From Hyphomicrobiales bacterium (GTDB taxonomy: Bacteria; Pseudomonadota; Alphaproteobacteria; Rhizobiales; Rhizobiaceae), in assembly GCA_900469345.1 (NCBI GenBank), contig UBWZ01000002.1, positions 549,579-613,578 on the forward strand: a DNA stretch of 64,000 nucleotides, given 5' to 3'. Of the stretch, positions 492 to 7,227 are shown in pieces (the first letter of the stretch is position 1; every line of letters starts with the position of its first letter). The notes beneath the pieces were generated by a model that saw only the letters and a list, made by a program, of their open reading frames with translations, was not told the origin of the DNA and ran no database searches. The translations under genes were made by a program, and so were the position numbers.

Positions 492-1835
492 ATGACTAGG
501 AAAATCATCGACACGCCCTATTCCGTCGCAGCTCTGGCGCCGGCTCTGGCTGCCATGGACGTGCAATGCGTCATCCGTTACTACAACCGGCAGAACACGG
601 CGAAATTTCCCAACAAGAAGCTGACGGCGGTCGAGGCGAAGGCGCTGAGCGAGCTTGGAATGAGCATCGCCGTCGTGTTCCAGCAGAACAATCGCGACCT
701 TGAGGATTTCAGCGCGGCGAATGCCAGGGATGACGCGCAGCAGGCGTTGATCGATGCCGCAAGCGTCGCCCAGCCCGGCGGCACCGCCATCTACTTCGCG
801 GTCGACAACGATTTCTTCAGGCCCGCAGAGCTGGACGTCATCATCGGCTATTTTGCCGGCGTGTGCGAGGAGTTCAAGCACGCCGGCACCGGCTACAGAC
901 TGGGCGTCTATGGCTCGGGAACGGTGGCACAGGCGCTCCTGGACGAACACCTTGTCGACCACGTCTGGATCGCCCGCGCACTTGGCTGGTCCGGGAGCCG
1001 CACGTTCCTCAAATCTGACCGCTGGGATCTCTTCCAGGATGCCGTCGACCTGAAGTTCGAGAACATCGACTACGACAGCAACATCACACGCCCCGGAGTG
1101 ACCGATTTCGGCCAGTTCCGCACCGCCAGGCCGCCGCTCGGCGGCTCTTACAAGCCGGGCGAAATCGCCGCCAGCAAGACGGTCTTCGAGGTCGCCGCAC
1201 GCACCTTCCTCAACCTGCGCGGCGGGCCGGGTCTGGATTTCGACGTCATCCGCAGCCTGCAGCCGGTGCAGCGGCTTTACGGCCTGAAACGCAGCGGCGA
1301 CTGGCTGCAGGTGGATATCGAGGGCGACGGCGCGGCCGACGGCTATGTCAACGCCAACTATCTGCGGCCCGTGGTCGGCACCATGGAGGATGTCGAGGCA
1401 TCGGGGGTGCAGCCGATCGACATCGCCTATCAGGAACTGCAGCTGCATGTCCGCGAAACACCCGGCGAGGGTGTCAACCCGCGCATCGCCGTCTATTACC
1501 AGAAGCTCGACAACGTGGTTCACGAGGATGACGATGTTCCCTGGTGCTCCTACTTCGTCAACTACTGCTTCGCTGGGGCGGGTCGGCGCGGCAGCGGCAG
1601 GGCCAATGCCCGCTCCTGGCTTTCGTGGGGACAGCCGGTACTTTCTCCGGCGCAATCGCGGCGGGGTGACCTGGTCGTGTTTTCGGACGGCAAGCCGGGC
1701 AGCACGAGAGGCCATGTCGGCTTTCTGGTCGGCTGGCAGAACGACGATCCGATCATCCTCGGCGGCAACCAGGGCGATGCCGTCAGCGTCGGCCCGATGG
1801 ATGGCAACAGGGTGCTCGGCATCCGGCGCGGCTAG
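492..1835 (+). CDS. Endolysin-like protein: DUF1906 glycoside hydrolase-like, SH3-like and CHAP/TIGR02594-type domains
   Basis: This 447-residue protein starts at an ATG preceded by GGGGA. An in-frame start 120 bases upstream adds residues with no family similarity and was not used. Residues about 5-215 resemble the DUF1906 (Rv2525c-like) TIM-barrel, beginning IDTPYS and with FAVDND and ENIDYD acidic motifs. Residues about 235-295 form an SH3-like domain (LNLRGGPG..., GYVNANYLRP). Residues about 310-447 match the CHAP-like TIGR02594 family, with candidate catalytic Cys352 in PWCSYFVNYC and His408 in GHVGF. Two potential wall-degrading domains flank a binding domain, and no signal peptide is visible. 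It could be a phage-derived lysin, a self-autolysin exported by another route, or a secretion-system effector. It stands alone between genes on the opposite strand. Confidence 0.75.
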   Translation: MTRKIIDTPYSVAALAPALAAMDVQCVIRYYNRQNTAKFPNKKLTAVEAKALSELGMSIAVVFQQNNRDLEDFSAANARDDAQQALIDAASVAQPGGTAIYFAVDNDFFRPAELDVIIGYFAGVCEEFKHAGTGYRLGVYGSGTVAQALLDEHLVDHVWIARALGWSGSRTFLKSDRWDLFQDAVDLKFENIDYDSNITRPGVTDFGQFRTARPPLGGSYKPGEIAASKTVFEVAARTFLNLRGGPGLDFDVIRSLQPVQRLYGLKRSGDWLQVDIEGDGAADGYVNANYLRPVVGTMEDVEASGVQPIDIAYQELQLHVRETPGEGVNPRIAVYYQKLDNVVHEDDDVPWCSYFVNYCFAGAGRRGSGRANARSWLSWGQPVLSPAQSRRGDLVVFSDGKPGSTRGHVGFLVGWQNDDPIILGGNQGDAVSVGPMDGNRVLGIRRG

Positions 1836-1871: not shown

Positions 1872-2618
1872 TCAGACACGGCCGCTGGCGAGCGCCAGCG
1901 CCCAGTCGGAACGCCCGCGACTGGCCGCCAGCCTCGACATCGCCATGTGGTCGTAAGGCAGGTTGCGGAACTGCACGGCCCACGCCCCGTCGCTCCTGTC
2001 GAGAACCGCGTAGGAGGCCATGGCATGGCCGTTCTCCACCTTGTGGAAGACCGGATGGTCGTCCTCGTAGGCGGGGCAGCCGACGCTGCCCGGGTTGACG
2101 ATCAGCCGCCCGTCCGAAAGCTGCACCGCGCGTGGCACGTGGCTGTGGCCGCACAGGATCAGCGTCTGCTCGATGCCTGCAGCCATAGCTTCGATCTCGT
2201 CGAGCAGCCGCAGATGCACATGCCCCTCCGGCGATACCCGCTCCAGCCAGTAGACCTCGTCCGACGCGGGCGTCGCATGGCAGGCGAACACGTCGTCGCG
2301 AAACACAAGGCTCGGCTGCAGGCGCGACAGCCATTGCAGGTGCCGCGGCGCCAGCTGCCCGTAGGCATCGCTTTCCCAGCTGCCCATCTCGGTGTGAAGC
2401 GTCTCGAGCAGATAGCGGTCGTGGTTGCCGCGCACCGTCGCCACCGCCTCCGGGTCGAGCAGCAGCAGCAGGTCGGCCGTCTGCGCCGCCTCCAGCGGCC
2501 CGCTCAGGCAATCGCCCAGATTGACCACGTCGCGGATCCCGAGAGCGGCGATGTCGTCGAGCACCGCCTTCAACGCCGCGTGGTTGCCGTGGATATCGGC
2601 GATGGCCGCAAACCGCAT
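1872..2618 (-). CDS. Calcineurin-like metallophosphoesterase (YfcE/MJ0936 type), last gene of the urate operon
   Basis: This 248-residue protein has the full metal-binding set of the calcineurin-like phosphoesterases: Asp8 and His10 in ADIHGN, Asp36 in LGDCLSG, Asn65/His66 in GNHD, a His at 114, and His158/His160 in GHSH. The start ATG shares one base with the uraH stop (TGATG), so translation is coupled to the urate operon. Members of this family hydrolyse phosphodiesters or phosphomonoesters in the cytoplasm, but specificity cannot be read from sequence. A role in urate breakdown is not established. It may be a housekeeping phosphatase that rides on the operon. Confidence 0.85.
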   Translation of the reverse strand: MRFAAIADIHGNHAALKAVLDDIAALGIRDVVNLGDCLSGPLEAAQTADLLLLLDPEAVATVRGNHDRYLLETLHTEMGSWESDAYGQLAPRHLQWLSRLQPSLVFRDDVFACHATPASDEVYWLERVSPEGHVHLRLLDEIEAMAAGIEQTLILCGHSHVPRAVQLSDGRLIVNPGSVGCPAYEDDHPVFHKVENGHAMASYAVLDRSDGAWAVQFRNLPYDHMAMSRLAASRGRSDWALALASGRV

Positions 2619-2974
2619 CAGCTGCCACGGTAGGTGGAGTAACCGAACGGCGAGAGCAGCAGCGGCACATGGTAATGGGCGGCGCTGTCGGCGATGCCGA
2701 AGCGGATCGGAATGATGTCGAGAAAGGCGGGCTCGGGTAGCGCGATCCCCCGCCCGCGCAGATAGTCGCCGGCATGGAAGACCAGCTCGTATTCGCCGGG
2801 CACGAAGGTTTCGCCTGCAAGCAGGGGGCCGCCATCGACCCGCCCGTCGCTGTTGGTCGTGACGCTCCTCAGCTTCTCGCGGCGATCACCGGAAAGGCGG
2901 TAGAGATCGATCACGAGTCCTGCGGCAGGCAGACCTGCAGCCGTATCGAGCACATGGGTGGTCAGTCCGGTCAC
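2618..2974 (-). CDS. uraH: 5-hydroxyisourate hydrolase (transthyretin-like)
   Basis: This enzyme hydrolyses 5-hydroxyisourate to OHCU, the second step of urate breakdown. With the GTG start at 2974 it is 118 residues, the normal family length. It begins [10 protein letters not shown], carrying the conserved N-terminal histidine, and ends with the diagnostic YRGS tetrapeptide. A longer reading to 3100 is open, but it lies inside allA and adds nothing conserved. The GTG start overlaps the allA stop (GTGA) and its stop overlaps the metallophosphoesterase start, so all three are probably translated from one message. No signal peptide is seen, so it is cytoplasmic. Confidence 0.93.
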
Positions 2975-3465
2975 GGCGTCGGCTCCGCTATCACATAGGG
3001 TGTGTCGAAGGAAAACTCTTCCAGGTTGGCTGCGGTATTGTCGCGGTCCACCACCAGGAAGTCGCTGGTCTCGCCGAGCGCCATCAGCGGATGATGCCAC
3101 GTACCGGCAAAATAGTTGACCCCCTGGTTTGCCTGGACCAGGAAGACTTTTGGCTGCCCCGGCCGCCCGTCCACGTCGTCCGACACCGCGACCAGGAACG
3201 GCCGGCCCGATAGCGGCATGAAGCTCTGGCTGCCGAACGGATGCCGCTCCATCATCGTCAGCGCATAGGGAAAGGTCCGCGGCTTGCCCCGGAAGATGCT
3301 GAAGATCAGGCGTTCGCCCGACCCGACCGGGGCGGCCACGCCGTGATAGCGCTCCGTCGTACCGCCATTGATCAGCCGCATGGTCGATGGATCCGCTTCG
3401 ATCACCTCGCCATACGGCAGGAAGGCCTGTTTCGCGAGCGGGTGGATGGAAAGAAATGCCGTCAA
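2971..3465 (-). CDS. allA: Ureidoglycolate lyase/hydrolase
   Basis: This enzyme splits ureidoglycolate to glyoxylate plus urea, the last step of the allantoin route. The protein fits the AllA family: an N-terminal segment reading [14 protein letters not shown], a central SQSFMPL stretch, then [16 protein letters not shown], where conserved histidines of the cupin-like fold sit, and FLVVDRD. I chose a TTG start at 3465, one base after the hepT stop. This gives 164 residues and an N-terminus that matches the family. Another TTG at 3513 would add 16 residues inside hepT. No ATG is available, so translation may depend on coupling to hepT. Confidence 0.88.
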
Positions 3466-3466
3466 T

Positions 3467-3829
3467 TCATTCGCCTTGTGCACGCCAGTTGATGATAGCG
3501 TCGAGTTGCTCAATGAGGTCAGGGAGGTTCTGGCGGACCGTTATCCAGATCGTGTTGCGATCGATCCTGAAATATTGATGAGTGATCCGATCTCGCATGG
3601 CCCGGATGTCCATCCACGCGATCTCGGCATGGTCCGAAACAAAGGCTGGATAACGCTCCATGATCTTTATGGCGCATTCGCCAACTGCAGCAATATTGGC
3701 AATGACCGCATCCTGCGTTCTCTGATCTGCCTCGAATACCTGCTGTCCCATGCCATCAACATAGAAAACTGCCCGTCGAGCAGAGCTTTCCATCCGCTCG
3801 ACATAAAGTTTCAAGCGGTCTTCGGTCAT
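3467..3829 (-). CDS. HepT-like HEPN ribonuclease toxin
   Basis: This 120-residue all-alpha protein belongs to the HEPN/DUF86 (HepT) family. The diagnostic R-x4-H motif is present as Arg79 to His84 (RDRITH), followed by Tyr86, the residue that MNT antitoxins modify by AMP addition in characterised HepT-MntA systems. Its ATG overlaps the stop of the upstream MNT gene by four bases (ATGA). Its own stop lies one base before the allA TTG. HEPN toxins of this class cleave RNA; activity here is inferred. The DNA is less G+C-rich than its neighbours (bases 3661-3720 are 50% G+C), which suggests acquisition. It sits in the middle of the urate operon with no transposase nearby. Confidence 0.88.
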   Translation of the reverse strand: MTEDRLKLYVERMESSARRAVFYVDGMGQQVFEADQRTQDAVIANIAAVGECAIKIMERYPAFVSDHAEIAWMDIRAMRDRITHQYFRIDRNTIWITVRQNLPDLIEQLDAIINWRAQGE

Positions 3830-4119
3830 ACGGGAGTAGCTTCGGAAAGGATTCTCTCCCGTGTATCCGGCGGGAAATCACCTGGAACCTTGACATCGAC
3901 CGGAACGCCGAGCGCTTCCTCCAATTCCCACTGAAGGCCACCCAGGGTCAACAGCGACGTATCGGATGAAGGATCGACGATGAGGTCGAGGTCGCTGTCC
4001 TCCCTGTCGAGCCCATGAAGAACCGAACCATAGACCCGAGGGTTTGAAACGCGTCGACGGGCAACGATCGCCCTGATCGCTTCCCGGTTCTTCTCCAGCA
4101 CCTCCGACGGTCGCATCAT
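3826..4119 (-). CDS. MNT-type nucleotidyltransferase antitoxin (MntA-like)
   Basis: This 97-residue minimal nucleotidyltransferase pairs with the HepT-like gene just downstream. The family signature GS-x10-DxD is complete: Gly31-Ser32 and Asp43-Leu-Asp45 (GSVLHG...DSDLD). A third acidic residue, Asp75, lies in PVDVKV. The start is the first of two adjacent ATGs, five bases after an AGGAG site, so it can be translated on its own. It is separated from the alc stop by 51 bases. Known MntA proteins neutralise HepT by adding AMP to the tyrosine of the HEPN motif, and that residue is present in the partner. Confidence 0.88.
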   Translation of the reverse strand: MMRPSEVLEKNREAIRAIVARRRVSNPRVYGSVLHGLDREDSDLDLIVDPSSDTSLLTLGGLQWELEEALGVPVDVKVPGDFPPDTRERILSEATPV

Positions 4120-4170
4120 CTGATCTCCTGATGCCGCCACTATAGAACGACGCCCCCGGCAAGCAAAGCG

Positions 4171-5193
4171 TCAGGCTTTCGTGCCAAACAGCCGCAGCCG
4201 CATCGTGCCGCCATCCGGGTGCATGGCGTAGCGCACATGGGTGACCGGGCCGATATCGGCGACCACGTCTGGCCCGAACGCGTGGGCGTGGTCCATCTGC
4301 AGCTTCTGCCGCGGCAGGATCGGCTTCCAGCCTTCCGATTCGCGGATCTGCGCCTCCGAGACGGTGTCGCCGAGCTGCGGCAGATAGGCGCCGAGCAGCT
4401 CGCAGGTATCCGGGAAATTGCCCTTGTAGAATGCCGTGTCGACGGTCACGCGCCGGATCGTGCCCGCATGTCCGAGCCGGATCACCGCCCAGTCGTGACC
4501 CGGTCCGCGGCGGCGCTTGGTTTCCCAGCCGTCGCCCATGTTGAGGCCGCGCCCCGGCCCCAGCATCTTGTCCGGATGGCCGTAATGGGCATCCGACCAG
4601 GCGAGCGCCTTGGCGCCGTGAAAGATGTAGCCGAGGTCGATCTCGTCAGCCGGTCCGACCTTGTCCCAGTCGAAATGCGCCGCGCCATAGACGCGCAGAC
4701 GGGCAATGCCGCCGTCCGGATAGATGTGCAGGCGCAGATGCGTCCATACCTTGTCCTGGTCGCGGTTCTCGAAGAAATGGTGGGTGCTCGGTCCAAGCGC
4801 CGACTTGTCGAGGATTTCCGTCCACTCTACGTCGTCGAGCGAGCTTCCTTCCGCGATGAAGGCCGCCTCGATGGCGCAGTGCGGCGGATAGTTGCCGGTA
4901 AAATAGCTGGTATCGACGTCGAAGCCGAAGATGCGGCCCGGCATGGCGAGCTTGACGATCGCCCAGTCGTGGCCGGCCACTCGCTTGCGGCGGCTTTCCC
5001 AGCCGTCCATGTACTTGCCGTTGTCGTCATAGAGGTCCGGATCGAAGCTGGCAGGTTGATCGGCAAGCATGCGCTCCAGCGGCGCGAAGAACTCGTCGGT
5101 CGCATACACGCCTTTGGCGCCGAGGCGCGCGGAGGCAAGGTTGATGGCGCCGACCGCAAAGGCTGGCAGGGCAGTGTCGGCTTGGGCCGTCAT
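4171..5193 (-). CDS. alc: Allantoicase
   Basis: Allantoicase converts allantoate to ureidoglycolate plus urea. The 340-residue protein has the two repeated jelly-roll halves typical of the family. Each half carries a similar signature: GWESRRKRVAGHDWAIVKL near residue 70 and GWETKRRRGPGHDWAVIRL near residue 225. Length is as expected for the family. Its ATG overlaps the uraD stop by four bases (ATGA), so it is coupled to uraD. The next gene in the operon is the MNT antitoxin, not another catabolic gene. The protein is cytoplasmic. Confidence 0.95.
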   Translation of the reverse strand: MTAQADTALPAFAVGAINLASARLGAKGVYATDEFFAPLERMLADQPASFDPDLYDDNGKYMDGWESRRKRVAGHDWAIVKLAMPGRIFGFDVDTSYFTGNYPPHCAIEAAFIAEGSSLDDVEWTEILDKSALGPSTHHFFENRDQDKVWTHLRLHIYPDGGIARLRVYGAAHFDWDKVGPADEIDLGYIFHGAKALAWSDAHYGHPDKMLGPGRGLNMGDGWETKRRRGPGHDWAVIRLGHAGTIRRVTVDTAFYKGNFPDTCELLGAYLPQLGDTVSEAQIRESEGWKPILPRQKLQMDHAHAFGPDVVADIGPVTHVRYAMHPDGGTMRLRLFGTKA

Positions 5194-5693
5194 GTCAGTT
5201 TCTCCGGAAGCAGGGCTGCAAGGCGCAGATGCGCGATTTTTTCCACCTGGGCGGCGGCCGTCTCGAATTCGTCCTCGGCGCCGTTATGGACGCGCGTCTC
5301 GAAGGCGGCGAGGATATCGTCTTTAGTAAGCCCCTTGACCGCGATGATGAAGGGAAACCCGAATGTCTCCGTATAGGTGGCGTTGAGTTCGGTGAAGCGG
5401 GCATGTTCCGGCGGGCTGAGCCGATCGAGCCCGGCGCCGGCCTGTTCGCGGGCGCTGTCTTCCGTCAGCCCGCCGGCGATCGCCAGTTTGCCGGCGAGAT
5501 CCGGATGCGCGCGCAGCACCGAAAGCCGTTCCGCATGGCTCGACCGCCGGAACACCGAGACCATGGCGTCGTGCAGGCCCTTGGCCGTCATCGGCACGAA
5601 GACAAGCCCCTCGTCATAGACCCGCTCGGCGATGAAAGGCGAATGCTCGAACACGCCGCCGAACCGCTCGACGAAGTCGCCGCGCGCCGTCAA
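5190..5693 (-). CDS. uraD: OHCU decarboxylase
   Basis: This enzyme removes CO2 from 2-oxo-4-hydroxy-4-carboxy-5-ureidoimidazoline (OHCU), giving S-allantoin after UraH. It is 167 residues, the family length, and carries the conserved HPDLAGKLA motif with the catalytic histidine at about residue 63. The FGFPFIIAVKG stretch is also present. The start is a TTG at 5693 that overlaps the puuE stop (TTGA). No ATG lies near and the N-terminus after this TTG fits the family. The stop overlaps the allantoicase ATG. Longer upstream readings overlap puuE and are artefacts. Confidence 0.92.
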   Translation of the reverse strand: MTARGDFVERFGGVFEHSPFIAERVYDEGLVFVPMTAKGLHDAMVSVFRRSSHAERLSVLRAHPDLAGKLAIAGGLTEDSAREQAGAGLDRLSPPEHARFTELNATYTETFGFPFIIAVKGLTKDDILAAFETRVHNGAEDEFETAAAQVEKIAHLRLAALLPEKLT

Positions 5694-6628
5694 AGGGCAC
5701 CCGTGGCGAGGGTTGAGGGCTGGTGATGCGCATGCCAGTGATGGGCGATCTCGACCCGCTGCGGCAGCCACACCTTGTCGTGCGACAGGACGTATTCGAT
5801 AAACCGGCGCAGCGCGGCGATCCGGCCCGGCCGACCGACCAGCCGGCAGTGCAGCCCGATCGACATCATCTTCGGCGCCCCCTCCTGGCCCTCGCGGTAG
5901 AGCTCGTCGAAGGCATCCTTGAGATAGGTGAAAAACTGGTCGCCGGCGTTGAAACCCTGCGGCGTCGCAAACCGCATGTCGTTCGTATCGAGCGTGTAGG
6001 GGATGATCAGGAAGGGCTTGGCGCCGATCCCCGGCACCCAGTAGGGCAGATCGTCCGCATAGCTGTCGGACGAATAGAGAAAGCCGCCCTCCTCCATCAC
6101 CAGCCTCAGCGTATTGCCGGACGGCTTGCCCTGGTACATGCCGTAGGGCCGCTCGCCGGTGAGCTCCGTATGCAGGCGCACCGCCTCGAGAATATGCTCG
6201 CGCTCCTTCGCCTCGGGAAAATCCTTGTATTCCAGCCAGCGGTAGCCGTGGCTGGCGATTTCCCAGCCGGCTTCCTTCATGGCGGCGACGGCCTCCGGGT
6301 TGCGCGCCATGGCCAGCGTCACGCCATAGACCGTGGTCTGCACCTTGAGTTCGGTAAACAGCCGCCACAACCGCCAGAAGCCGGCGCGCGACCCGTATTC
6401 GTAGATCGATTCCATGTTGAGGTTGCGCTGGCCGGGCCACGGTGCCGCACCGACGATTTCCGACAGCAGCGATTCGGAGGCGGGATCGCCGTCGAGGATC
6501 GAGCTTTCGCCGCCCTCCTCGTAATTGATGACGAACTGCACCGCCAGGTGCGCGCCTCCCGGCCATTTCGGGTCGGGCGGGGTGCGGCCATAGCCGACGA
6601 GACCGCGCGGATAATCACTTGCCTGCAT
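5690..6628 (-). CDS. puuE: Allantoinase PuuE (polysaccharide-deacetylase fold)
   Basis: PuuE opens the hydantoin ring of allantoin to give allantoate. It uses a polysaccharide-deacetylase (NodB-like) fold and not the usual amidohydrolase fold. The 312-residue protein shows FVINYEEGGE near the N-terminus, EIASHGYRW (a metal-site histidine region), GMYQGKPSGNT and SIGLHCRLVGRPGR, all typical of the urate-associated subgroup. The ATG at 6628 follows a GAGGTGG ribosome site. An in-frame extension upstream has no family similarity. This is the first gene of the operon puuE-uraD-alc-mnt-hepT-allA-uraH-phosphoesterase. A gene for the first step, urate oxidation, is not in the window. Confidence 0.93.
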   Translation of the reverse strand: MQASDYPRGLVGYGRTPPDPKWPGGAHLAVQFVINYEEGGESSILDGDPASESLLSEIVGAAPWPGQRNLNMESIYEYGSRAGFWRLWRLFTELKVQTTVYGVTLAMARNPEAVAAMKEAGWEIASHGYRWLEYKDFPEAKEREHILEAVRLHTELTGERPYGMYQGKPSGNTLRLVMEEGGFLYSSDSYADDLPYWVPGIGAKPFLIIPYTLDTNDMRFATPQGFNAGDQFFTYLKDAFDELYREGQEGAPKMMSIGLHCRLVGRPGRIAALRRFIEYVLSHDKVWLPQRVEIAHHWHAHHQPSTLATGAL

Positions 6629-6744
6629 CAAACCACCTCGAAACGTTCGGAGCGACGGTAGCGCATGCCTTCCGCGCCTGTCGAGATGGAAACGCCGCAA
6701 CCCCCGCCATTCCCTTGGCCCGTGCCGCAAGCCGTCGCCGCTGC

Positions 6745-6775
6745 AAACGAAAATGGCCCGCCGAAGCGAGCCATT
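6745..6775 (-). terminator. Intrinsic terminator of the small lipoprotein gene
   Basis: On the minus strand AATGGCTCGC pairs with GCGGGCCATT (10 bp with one G-U pair) around a TTCG tetraloop. TTTTCGTTT follows. It lies 66 bases after the stop of the lipoprotein gene and before puuE, so it should keep that transcript out of the urate operon. Confidence 0.75.
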
Positions 6776-6840
6776 CTTGACCTTGCGACGAGGCTCCCCG
6801 GCATCGGCCGGAGGCGTCGCGATCTGCCTTGGCAACCGGC

Positions 6841-7227
6841 TTACGGGTTGCGGATGATGATCGTCCTGCCGTCGGTACGGCTGGCGCCCGGACGTCCGTC
6901 GTAGCCGCGGTTCGGCCCGTTGTCGCGCGCCCGCGGACCGCGGCCGGCCCAGGTCGGATCCGGCTTGTCGCGGTTAGCGGCGGCCTGGTTCATGCCCGGG
7001 CGACCGTAATGGCCGCGATCGTTGTGGCCGTTCTGCGGTCCGCGATGATGGTCGCGGTCGCGACGGTTGCGCCAGTAGCGGTCCTGACCGCGGTCGCTGC
7101 GATCGTAAACCGGGTTGTAGCTCGAATATCCGCGGTCGCCATAGCTGCCGCCTTCGCTGACGCAGCCCGTCAACGCCAGGCAGGCAAGGCCGAGAGCGCC
7201 GGCAATGATCTTGCTTCGATGTTTCAT
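6841..7227 (-). CDS. Small lipoprotein rich in Arg, Asp, Gly and Tyr
   Basis: This 128-residue hypothetical lipoprotein starts MKHRSKIIAG and has a clear type II signal peptide with lipobox LALTGC, so Cys22 would be acylated after cleavage. The mature part is very hydrophilic. It is rich in Asp-Arg, Gly-Tyr and Asn-Arg pairs (RDRDHHRG), ends IIIRNP, and shows no known domain. I used the ATG at 7227 because it directly precedes the signal peptide; a longer reading begins with unrelated residues. The role is unknown. An envelope or surface-charge function is a guess from composition. Confidence 0.75.
   Translation of the reverse strand: MKHRSKIIAGALGLACLALTGCVSEGGSYGDRGYSSYNPVYDRSDRGQDRYWRNRRDRDHHRGPQNGHNDRGHYGRPGMNQAAANRDKPDPTWAGRGPRARDNGPNRGYDGRPGASRTDGRTIIIRNP

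Follow-up and report, generated by a model that had tools for sequence, protein, structure and literature searches.

A predicted type VII-like HEPN/MNT cassette resident in the urate operon of a Rhizobiaceae genus, with host-inherited ends and bodies that look exchanged

The window, i.e., the whole stretch of 64,000 nucleotides analysed here, comes from contig UBWZ01000002.1 of a bacterium of the family Rhizobiaceae and encodes, on the minus strand, a urate operon with the gene order puuE, uraD, alc, mnt, hepT, allA, uraH and a metallophosphatase gene. Searches with Pfam and NCBIfam profiles confirmed the identities of uraD, puuE (polysaccharide-deacetylase family), alc, the allantoicase gene that precedes the cassette in the window (4171..5193; TIGR02961, 1.4e-125), allA, a ureidoglycolate lyase gene with a TTG start (2971..3465; Pfam Ureidogly_lyase, 1.4e-52), and uraH, which encodes a hydroxyisourate hydrolase (2618..2974; TIGR02962, 1.1e-36; Transthyretin family of Pfam). 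Between alc and allA lie mnt (3826..4116), encoding a minimal nucleotidyltransferase (MNT) of 96 amino acids that is the predicted antitoxin (Pfam NTP_transf_2, 1.4e-8), and hepT (3467..3829), encoding a HEPN, RNase-like predicted toxin of 120 amino acids (Pfam HepT-like, 9.8e-22) with a core of class 4 (see below). A preliminary description of this DNA had noted complete HEPN and MNT motifs, and both indeed read intact: R79-DRIT-H84-Q-Y86 of HepT conforms to Rx4HxY, with R79, H84 and Y86 invariant in an alignment of eight rows, and GS-VLHGLDREDS-DLD of the MNT conforms to GSx10DxD. The tight packing of the genes is also borne out: mnt and hepT overlap by the four bases ATGA at 3826-3829, and a single base (3466) separates the hepT TGA (3469-3467) from the allA TTG at 3465. 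There are two adjacent ATG codons at the beginning of mnt, at 4119 and 4116; the former had been taken as the 5' limit of the pair, but the ATG of the relatives corresponds to the latter. The sequence AGGAG (4125..4129, minus strand) reads as the Shine-Dalgarno of mnt, and GGAG is found no more than 22 nt from the mnt start in 76 of 90 leaders. A candidate hairpin in the mnt leader, suggested by the palindromic look around GGAG, was rejected (pairing of 4.20 out of 8 vs 4.11 with re-dealt arms). The lower G+C content reported for the pair is real (0.52-0.55 vs 0.60-0.67 on either side, in 300-base windows) but is no mark of recent arrival because low hepT G+C is general among the relatives, the allA-proximal hepT being below allA in 55 of the 56 genomes compared.

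Two features of type VII HepT/MntA systems are present, namely, a HEPN protein of PF01934 with the Rx4HxY motif and an adjoining MNT of PF01909 with GSx10DxD. The NCBIfam models HepT_toxin (NF047751) and MntA_antitoxin (NF047752) match at 30.4 and 26.1 bits, respectively, below their cut-off of 60, so that the pair is filed not as that equivalog but only as a HEPN/MNT pair of the same kind. Four PADLOC models of PDC-S09, a label for candidate defence proteins only, match the MNT (best 2.7e-24), and none of the PADLOC models matches hepT. By sequence search of PDB, the MNT has one solved relative (1wot, 4.4e-13) and HepT has none. The AlphaFold2 model of the window HepT (pLDDT 91) has the HepT of Shewanella oneidensis as its best two Foldseek matches (6m6u and 5yep; probability 1.00, E 0.013-0.016, TM 0.67-0.72 by query length), with no match reaching E 0.001.

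The biochemistry described for HepT/MntA comprises AMPylation of a HepT tyrosine and an Rx4H RNase (accounts in PMC7641770 and PMC11586414). The pair resembles SO_3166/SO_3165 of S. oneidensis, where a HEPN protein with Rx4HxY is encoded beside an MNT with GSx10DxD (motifs as given in PMC7641770), but differs in being bound to a single operon slot with ends that appear resident and bodies that appear swapped, in carrying within hepT an apparent Shine-Dalgarno of the next enzyme gene, and in having motif-less, antitoxin-less relatives in the same slot. In length, the 96-residue MNT is nearer to the MNT of Legionella (about 108 residues, without helix alpha4) than to MntA of S. oneidensis (about 139 residues), as these are presented in PMC11586414. 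A likeness in position is found in Thermus thermophilus HB8, with an MNT-HEPN module inside a biosynthetic operon, that for lysine; in that account (Makarova et al. 2009, PMC2701414), the module is present in one strain and absent from another, whereas the urate-operon pair is near-universal in the genus, with its body apparently exchanged. In the open-licence PMC literature, we found no description of a HEPN/MNT pair in a urate or ureide operon, and no paper combining ureidoglycolate lyase, nucleotidyltransferase and HEPN, or HEPN, minimal nucleotidyltransferase and Rhizobiaceae.

Of the 100 genomes searched, including that of the window, allA was matched at E 0.001 or below in 79, with all 56 same-genus relatives among these; operon regions were taken from the 56 and from four genomes outside the genus. 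In 55 of the 56, an mnt and/or a hepT occupies the interval from uraD or alc to allA, the sole relative with neither being L039, and both are missing from the slot in the four outside genomes. Three of the same-genus operons (L036, L052 and L058) have hepT without mnt, and eight (L033, L034, L060, L064, L066, L074, L077 and L081) have two or more cassettes, with class 4 standing first in seven of these. In the 57 genomes of the genus, compared by eye, the MNT matches between 8e-49 and 7.6e-28 all adjoin allA; matches elsewhere are at 7.6e-14 or weaker, such distant MNTs being found in many members, and one split fragment of the operon mnt copy of L070 scores 1.3e-11. The scattered, patchy pattern of mobile toxin-antitoxin modules is thus not seen within the genus: there is one slot, and it is the body that changes rather than the place. 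Occupancy of the slot in nearly every genome of the genus indicates that this occupancy is old. Hence, of the earlier suggestion that a HEPN/MNT pair had been captured into and wired into this operon, the physical tie to allA stands and the capture as a local event does not, the comparison of relatives having come close to finding the pair in all of them and the slot being filled in other genus groups as well. In the window and a minority of same-genus operons (L034, L041, L046, L060 and L062), alc precedes the cassette; in most of the relatives, the preceding gene is uraD, and alc was not found in the stretch fetched, which makes alc a second presence/absence change beside the slot.

Beyond the genus, the same slot holds mnt and/or hepT in seven other genus groups (g55, g58, g70, g124, g140, g146 and g147), and the pair precedes allA also in named Neorhizobium, Pseudorhizobium, Xaviernesmea, Ciceribacter, Rhizobium and Agrobacterium arsenijevicii; the usual gene order, judged by frame ends, is found at L065, L108/L225, L158, L074, L104/L223 and L109. 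Occupancy outside the genus is patchy: among the matches listed, about 25 of the 164 allA-positive genomes of the family have an mnt match within some 1 kb upstream of allA, a figure matched by hand, from a first look that scored up to 13 MNT candidates per genome and missed lone hepTs. The collection comprises 107 distinct operon loci, 91 with hepT, and is a non-random sample: the named loci are the best 80 of 418 when ranked on MNT similarity, some half of them outside the operon, and 20 further loci were picked for having no MNT match in that place in the first family search. The comparison set of stand-alone hepTs has 38 members, with near-duplicates kept in.

A single origin of the copies that end in QGE is allowed, although not proved, by the trees, which rest on about 100 columns. 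The free hepT tree places class 4 among stand-alone rows; nevertheless, constraining all operon hepTs except those of g55 to group together gives no worse fit (p-AU 0.894, with four long-branch rows left out), the likelihood of the constrained tree being above that of the short free search, and the corresponding value for mnt is p-AU 0.522. In L226 and L227 (g55) and L228-L230 (g124), mnt-hepT, mnt-hepT-mnt or mnt alone stands before allA without a QGE end. In the hepT tree, L226 and L227 group with stand-alone rows, a placement that may point to repeated occupation of the slot. Many enterobacterial plasmids carry MNTs that share about 61% identity with those of the operon; of the 1,466 plasmid records that match the MNT, the best place is 60-80% identical in 51 and lower in 1,415.

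The last codons of the window hepT, NWRAQGE-stop (3467..3491, minus strand), form the 3' arm of the cassette, delimited by a base match to L033 (see below) and by counts of the QGE end. The codons CAR GGN GAR (QGE) before the stop contain AAGG or AGGG, here AAGG at 3474-3477 (minus strand), and read as the Shine-Dalgarno of allA, which would wire the pair to that gene. An end of the form [QE]GE is found in 88 of 91 allA-proximal hepTs, the exceptions being L226, L227 (g55) and L228 (g124), vs none of the 38 stand-alone hepTs, and [AG]GGNGA in the last 15 nt in 88 of 91 vs 2 of 38; of the 12 hepT frames that do not adjoin allA, a set that includes two fragments of split genes, 8 also end in [QE]GE. 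Counted from the GG, the first in-frame allA start follows at 3-14 nt in 73 of 88 loci, at 19 nt in two and at more than 20 nt in 13, a rough count in that the true start probably lies further downstream in the 20 loci with a value of 3 nt. At three module-free sites, a remnant of the hepT end still precedes allA, clear in L039 and L203 and faint in L204; there is none where alc directly precedes allA (L218, L220, L221 and L222). The earlier claim that allA can be translated only through the toxin gene goes too far, as L039 and L203 keep only the last hepT codons with allA open, and in the 13 loci mentioned the first in-frame allA start lies well away from the GG.

A promoter-like site close upstream of mnt would allow the pair, together with allA, to be transcribed independently of the genes before it. 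In the window, it consists of a -35-like hexamer, CTTTGC (4163..4168, minus strand), assigned from the pattern in the relatives, and a -10-like hexamer, TATAGT (4139..4144, minus strand), assigned from TATANT counts; CTTTCC-N18-TATANT was read by eye at the same place in several relatives. Against expectations from shuffles that preserve base content only, TATANT occurs in the 55 nt that precede the mnt start of 57 of the 78 first copies (1.7 expected) and likewise of 10 of the 12 downstream tandem copies (0.2 expected); of the 78 first-copy upstream regions, 58 have CTT or TTT suitably spaced ahead of TATANT (0.29 expected). The motif is absent around the start of the allA frame at all 14 sites that lack the pair and from the first 120 nt of eight of the ten lone hepTs. 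A stock sigma-70 scan of positions 2500-7000 reported one promoter-like site, on the plus strand at 6829, and not the site upstream of mnt. Thus, most of the cassettes carry what looks like a promoter, i.e., a pattern and not a mapped start. A terminator scan of the same region gave two terminator-like sites inside the pair; neither these nor the single promoter-like site of the stock scan exceed what shuffles give.

The HepT cores fall into eight classes and one fragment (L036), with 23-46% identity between classes, and the class adjoining allA carries little signal of host phylogeny. On a tree built from four proteins of the operon (57 rows, with 21 of the 54 inner branches unresolved), the class requires 28 changes, compared with a mean of 29.8 for shuffled labels, and 219 of 2000 shuffles need as few. 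The mnt and hepT cores move together (r 0.76 over 59 modules, with none of 999 permutations as high), and some host signal is kept (r 0.36 between host and hepT identity); in 9 of the 59 modules, the nearest mnt comes from another hepT class.

The ends of the cassette behave differently from its body. Genomes with both genes adjoining allA gave 1,254 pairs, which were sorted by allA identity into four bins. In the 28 pairs of close hosts with different classes, the identities in protein and at four-fold sites are, respectively, 0.41 and 0.42 for the hepT core, vs 0.95 and 0.78 for the last 12 hepT codons, 0.74 and 0.69 for the first 36 mnt codons, 0.93 and 0.72 for allA, and 0.90 and 0.79 for uraD. 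In the most distant bin of different-class pairs (503 pairs), four-fold identity falls to 0.44 in the last 12 hepT codons and to 0.45 in allA; this drop argues that the hepT end is inherited with the host rather than frozen by constraint. The hepT end, then, appears to follow the host even at synonymous sites, and the mnt start to do so less cleanly. A profile of DNA identity along 26 close different-class pairs delimits the arms: identity dips after mnt codon 8 (0.97 in codons 1-8, 0.42 in codons 17-24), is 0.36-0.38 in hepT codons -30 to -19 and recovers at codons -18 to -13, to reach 0.91-0.92 in the last 12; from this profile, the first mnt codons (minus strand) are taken as the 5' arm. 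In 24 same-class pairs, there is no dip, with 0.83-0.97 in every block of mnt and hepT. Identity rises again around the catalytic motifs even between classes (0.76-0.86 in mnt codons 25-48 and 0.69-0.81 in hepT codons -60 to -49), so that the left edge of the swapped body is poorly placed; furthermore, a single clade of nine genomes supplies 18 of the 26 close pairs, and the pairs therefore represent a few events.

The same discordance is seen within the window. Over the 45 bases that precede the hepT end, the closest match is to the first (class 4) copy of L033 (36 of 45, vs 26 of 45 for the third copy), whereas the last 25 bases of hepT, short as this evidence is, are identical to those of the third, allA-proximal hepT of L033 (25 of 25), a match that continues into allA (22 of 24). 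Taken together, the body of the cassette, i.e., most of mnt and hepT up to its last 12-18 codons or so, looks exchanged and the ends resident. Between the two cassettes of L074, we read by eye an apparent remnant of an allA start followed by one of a uraD end, which looks like what is expected from the joining-in of a cassette from a second operon.

The fate of the catalytic motif is linked to that of the antitoxin gene. The 107 distinct operon loci contain 99 unsplit hepT genes, each paired with mnt by gene ends; two split hepTs, in L036 (without mnt) and L132 (with mnt), were set aside. With a working mnt, 82 hepTs have Rx4HxY and six lack it (the first copy of L064, L072, L078, L084, L086 and L109, all beside an intact-looking mnt); without a working mnt, one has the motif and ten lack it. 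The one is L070, where a frameshifted mnt, possibly a sequence error, lies beside a motif-intact hepT; among the ten, mnt is broken in L050 and absent in L052, L058, L205-L210 and L219, the hepT frame of the last being short. Fisher's test gives p 5e-9 for this association, a value that counts related lineages and hence is not a probability of independent events. The motif-less, mnt-less cases amount to about four lineages: a class-1 type (L036, L052, L058, L205, L206 and L210), L207-L209, L050 and L219. No motif-intact HepT was seen in these operons with mnt wholly absent, and mnt loss goes with a motif-less HepT, from which we infer a toxin restrained by MntA.

By NG86 counting, the lone motif-less hepTs have dN/dS of 0.05-0.21 in six pairs with dS below 1 (three of the class-1 type and three from L207-L209), compared with 0.07-0.12 for allA in the same pairs; the value for L052/L058 is 0.32, and motif-less class 3 hepTs with mnt have 0.25-0.37. 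Thus, a HEPN frame that lacks both motif and antitoxin appears to be kept open under purifying selection in two lineages. Since a frame held open merely for translational coupling would not hold its amino acids, the dead HEPN is likely to have a job. In the class-1 type, the first in-frame start of the lone hepT is located at the uraD stop (-15 to +1 nt). In L207 and L209, about 220 nt separate the uraD stop from the first in-frame start of the lone hepT, room enough for a decayed mnt.

From these observations, we consider it quite probable that the pair is a resident, exchangeable toxin-antitoxin cassette similar to type VII systems and wired into the urate operon; the anatomy is legible in the sequences, and toxicity, purpose and driving force are what we infer from it. 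Body exchange would proceed probably through the homologous ends, sometimes by the addition of a second cassette and later loss of one. With the hepT end acting as an apparent Shine-Dalgarno and the cassette bringing its own promoter-like site, a swapped body would leave allA translatable. The predicted MntA would AMPylate the HepT tyrosine and thus restrain a genuine RNase toxin; this covalent inactivation may make swaps cheap because the modified HepT would stay silent after loss of the antitoxin. In some lineages, the toxin would have lost its activity and the operon its antitoxin gene, with the dead HEPN retained as one more ordinary gene. The most likely driver of the fast body turnover would be conflict, with phages, mobile elements or rival cassettes, and not a job specific to purines, a view that we prefer over both hitch-hiking and metabolic control.

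The strongest of the competing explanations, although an unlikely one, is that a selfish module hitch-hikes in the operon, kept for the allA ribosome-binding site and an internal promoter, with a toxin of no benefit to the host. The hepT-end traces at the module-free sites L039, L203 and, faintly, L204 fit this, as does the promoter-like site that comes with the cassette and is seen at none of the 14 sites without it; however, the loss in L039 shows that the module can go, and neither the repeated replacement of the body by distant versions nor the purifying selection on motif-less, antitoxin-less HEPNs is explained. Somewhat less probable still is differential deletion from an ancestral tandem array, different lineages retaining different members of it, in place of exchange between strains. 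The same pattern of ends and bodies would result from deletion between homologous ends, and 8 of the 56 same-genus operons do have more than one cassette, class 4 standing first in 7 of the 8, but some eight classes with little host signal would require a large ancestral set, and the allA and uraD remnants of L074 look like two operon ends joined. We doubt that the MNT/HEPN pair is a metabolic regulator that responds to ATP or purine state and adjusts ureide catabolism accordingly: its unchanging place in a single pathway across several genus groups, the use of ATP by MntA in the account of PMC7641770, and the class of lone HEPNs whose first in-frame start lies at the uraD stop, as in any other gene of an operon, are all compatible with such a regulator, but a pathway component would not be expected to turn over in class with so little host signal, and mnt lies near allA in only about 25 of the 164 allA-positive family genomes, among the matches listed. 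Equally doubtful is a more elaborate form of the conflict scenario in which the slot would be a polymorphic conflict locus, with toxin-antitoxin alleles swapped between species via resident ends that keep the host operon working, and with disarmed, antitoxin-less HEPNs kept because they would pair with and poison any active HepT that comes in, which would amount to an inbuilt immunity against rival cassettes. Finally, a recent jump of the module alone into the urate operon of this genome is most improbable despite the lower local G+C, the abundance of similar MNTs on plasmids and the published Thermus lysine operon case (as given in PMC2701414), because the slot is occupied in 55 of the 56 same-genus relatives, low hepT G+C is general and QGE ends are common to several genus groups, so that at most the body swap could be recent.

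If the preferred reading, an exchangeable resident cassette, holds, the slot would be of use beyond this operon. The purpose of chromosomal toxin-antitoxin pairs has long been argued, and the argument is usually blurred by patchy distribution; a near-universal single slot offers natural replacements on closely related backgrounds, with the motif-less relatives as controls, and makes phage, metabolic and cross-neutralisation hypotheses directly testable. A Shine-Dalgarno inside the last codons of the toxin gene would be a simple device for swapping a toxin within a working metabolic operon.

Two minor observations concern the same genome. A second, distant MNT-HEPN pair is encoded there (L002, C16:314247-317507; ORFs 1802-2167 and 1450-1776, minus strand), with a HEPN that lacks the exact Rx4HxY motif, and a gene near it encodes what we take to be an amidohydrolase of the histone-deacetylase family. 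In the window itself, a large ORF at 372-1835 on the plus strand appears to encode a glycoside-hydrolase-like domain with SH3 and CHAP-like parts after it.
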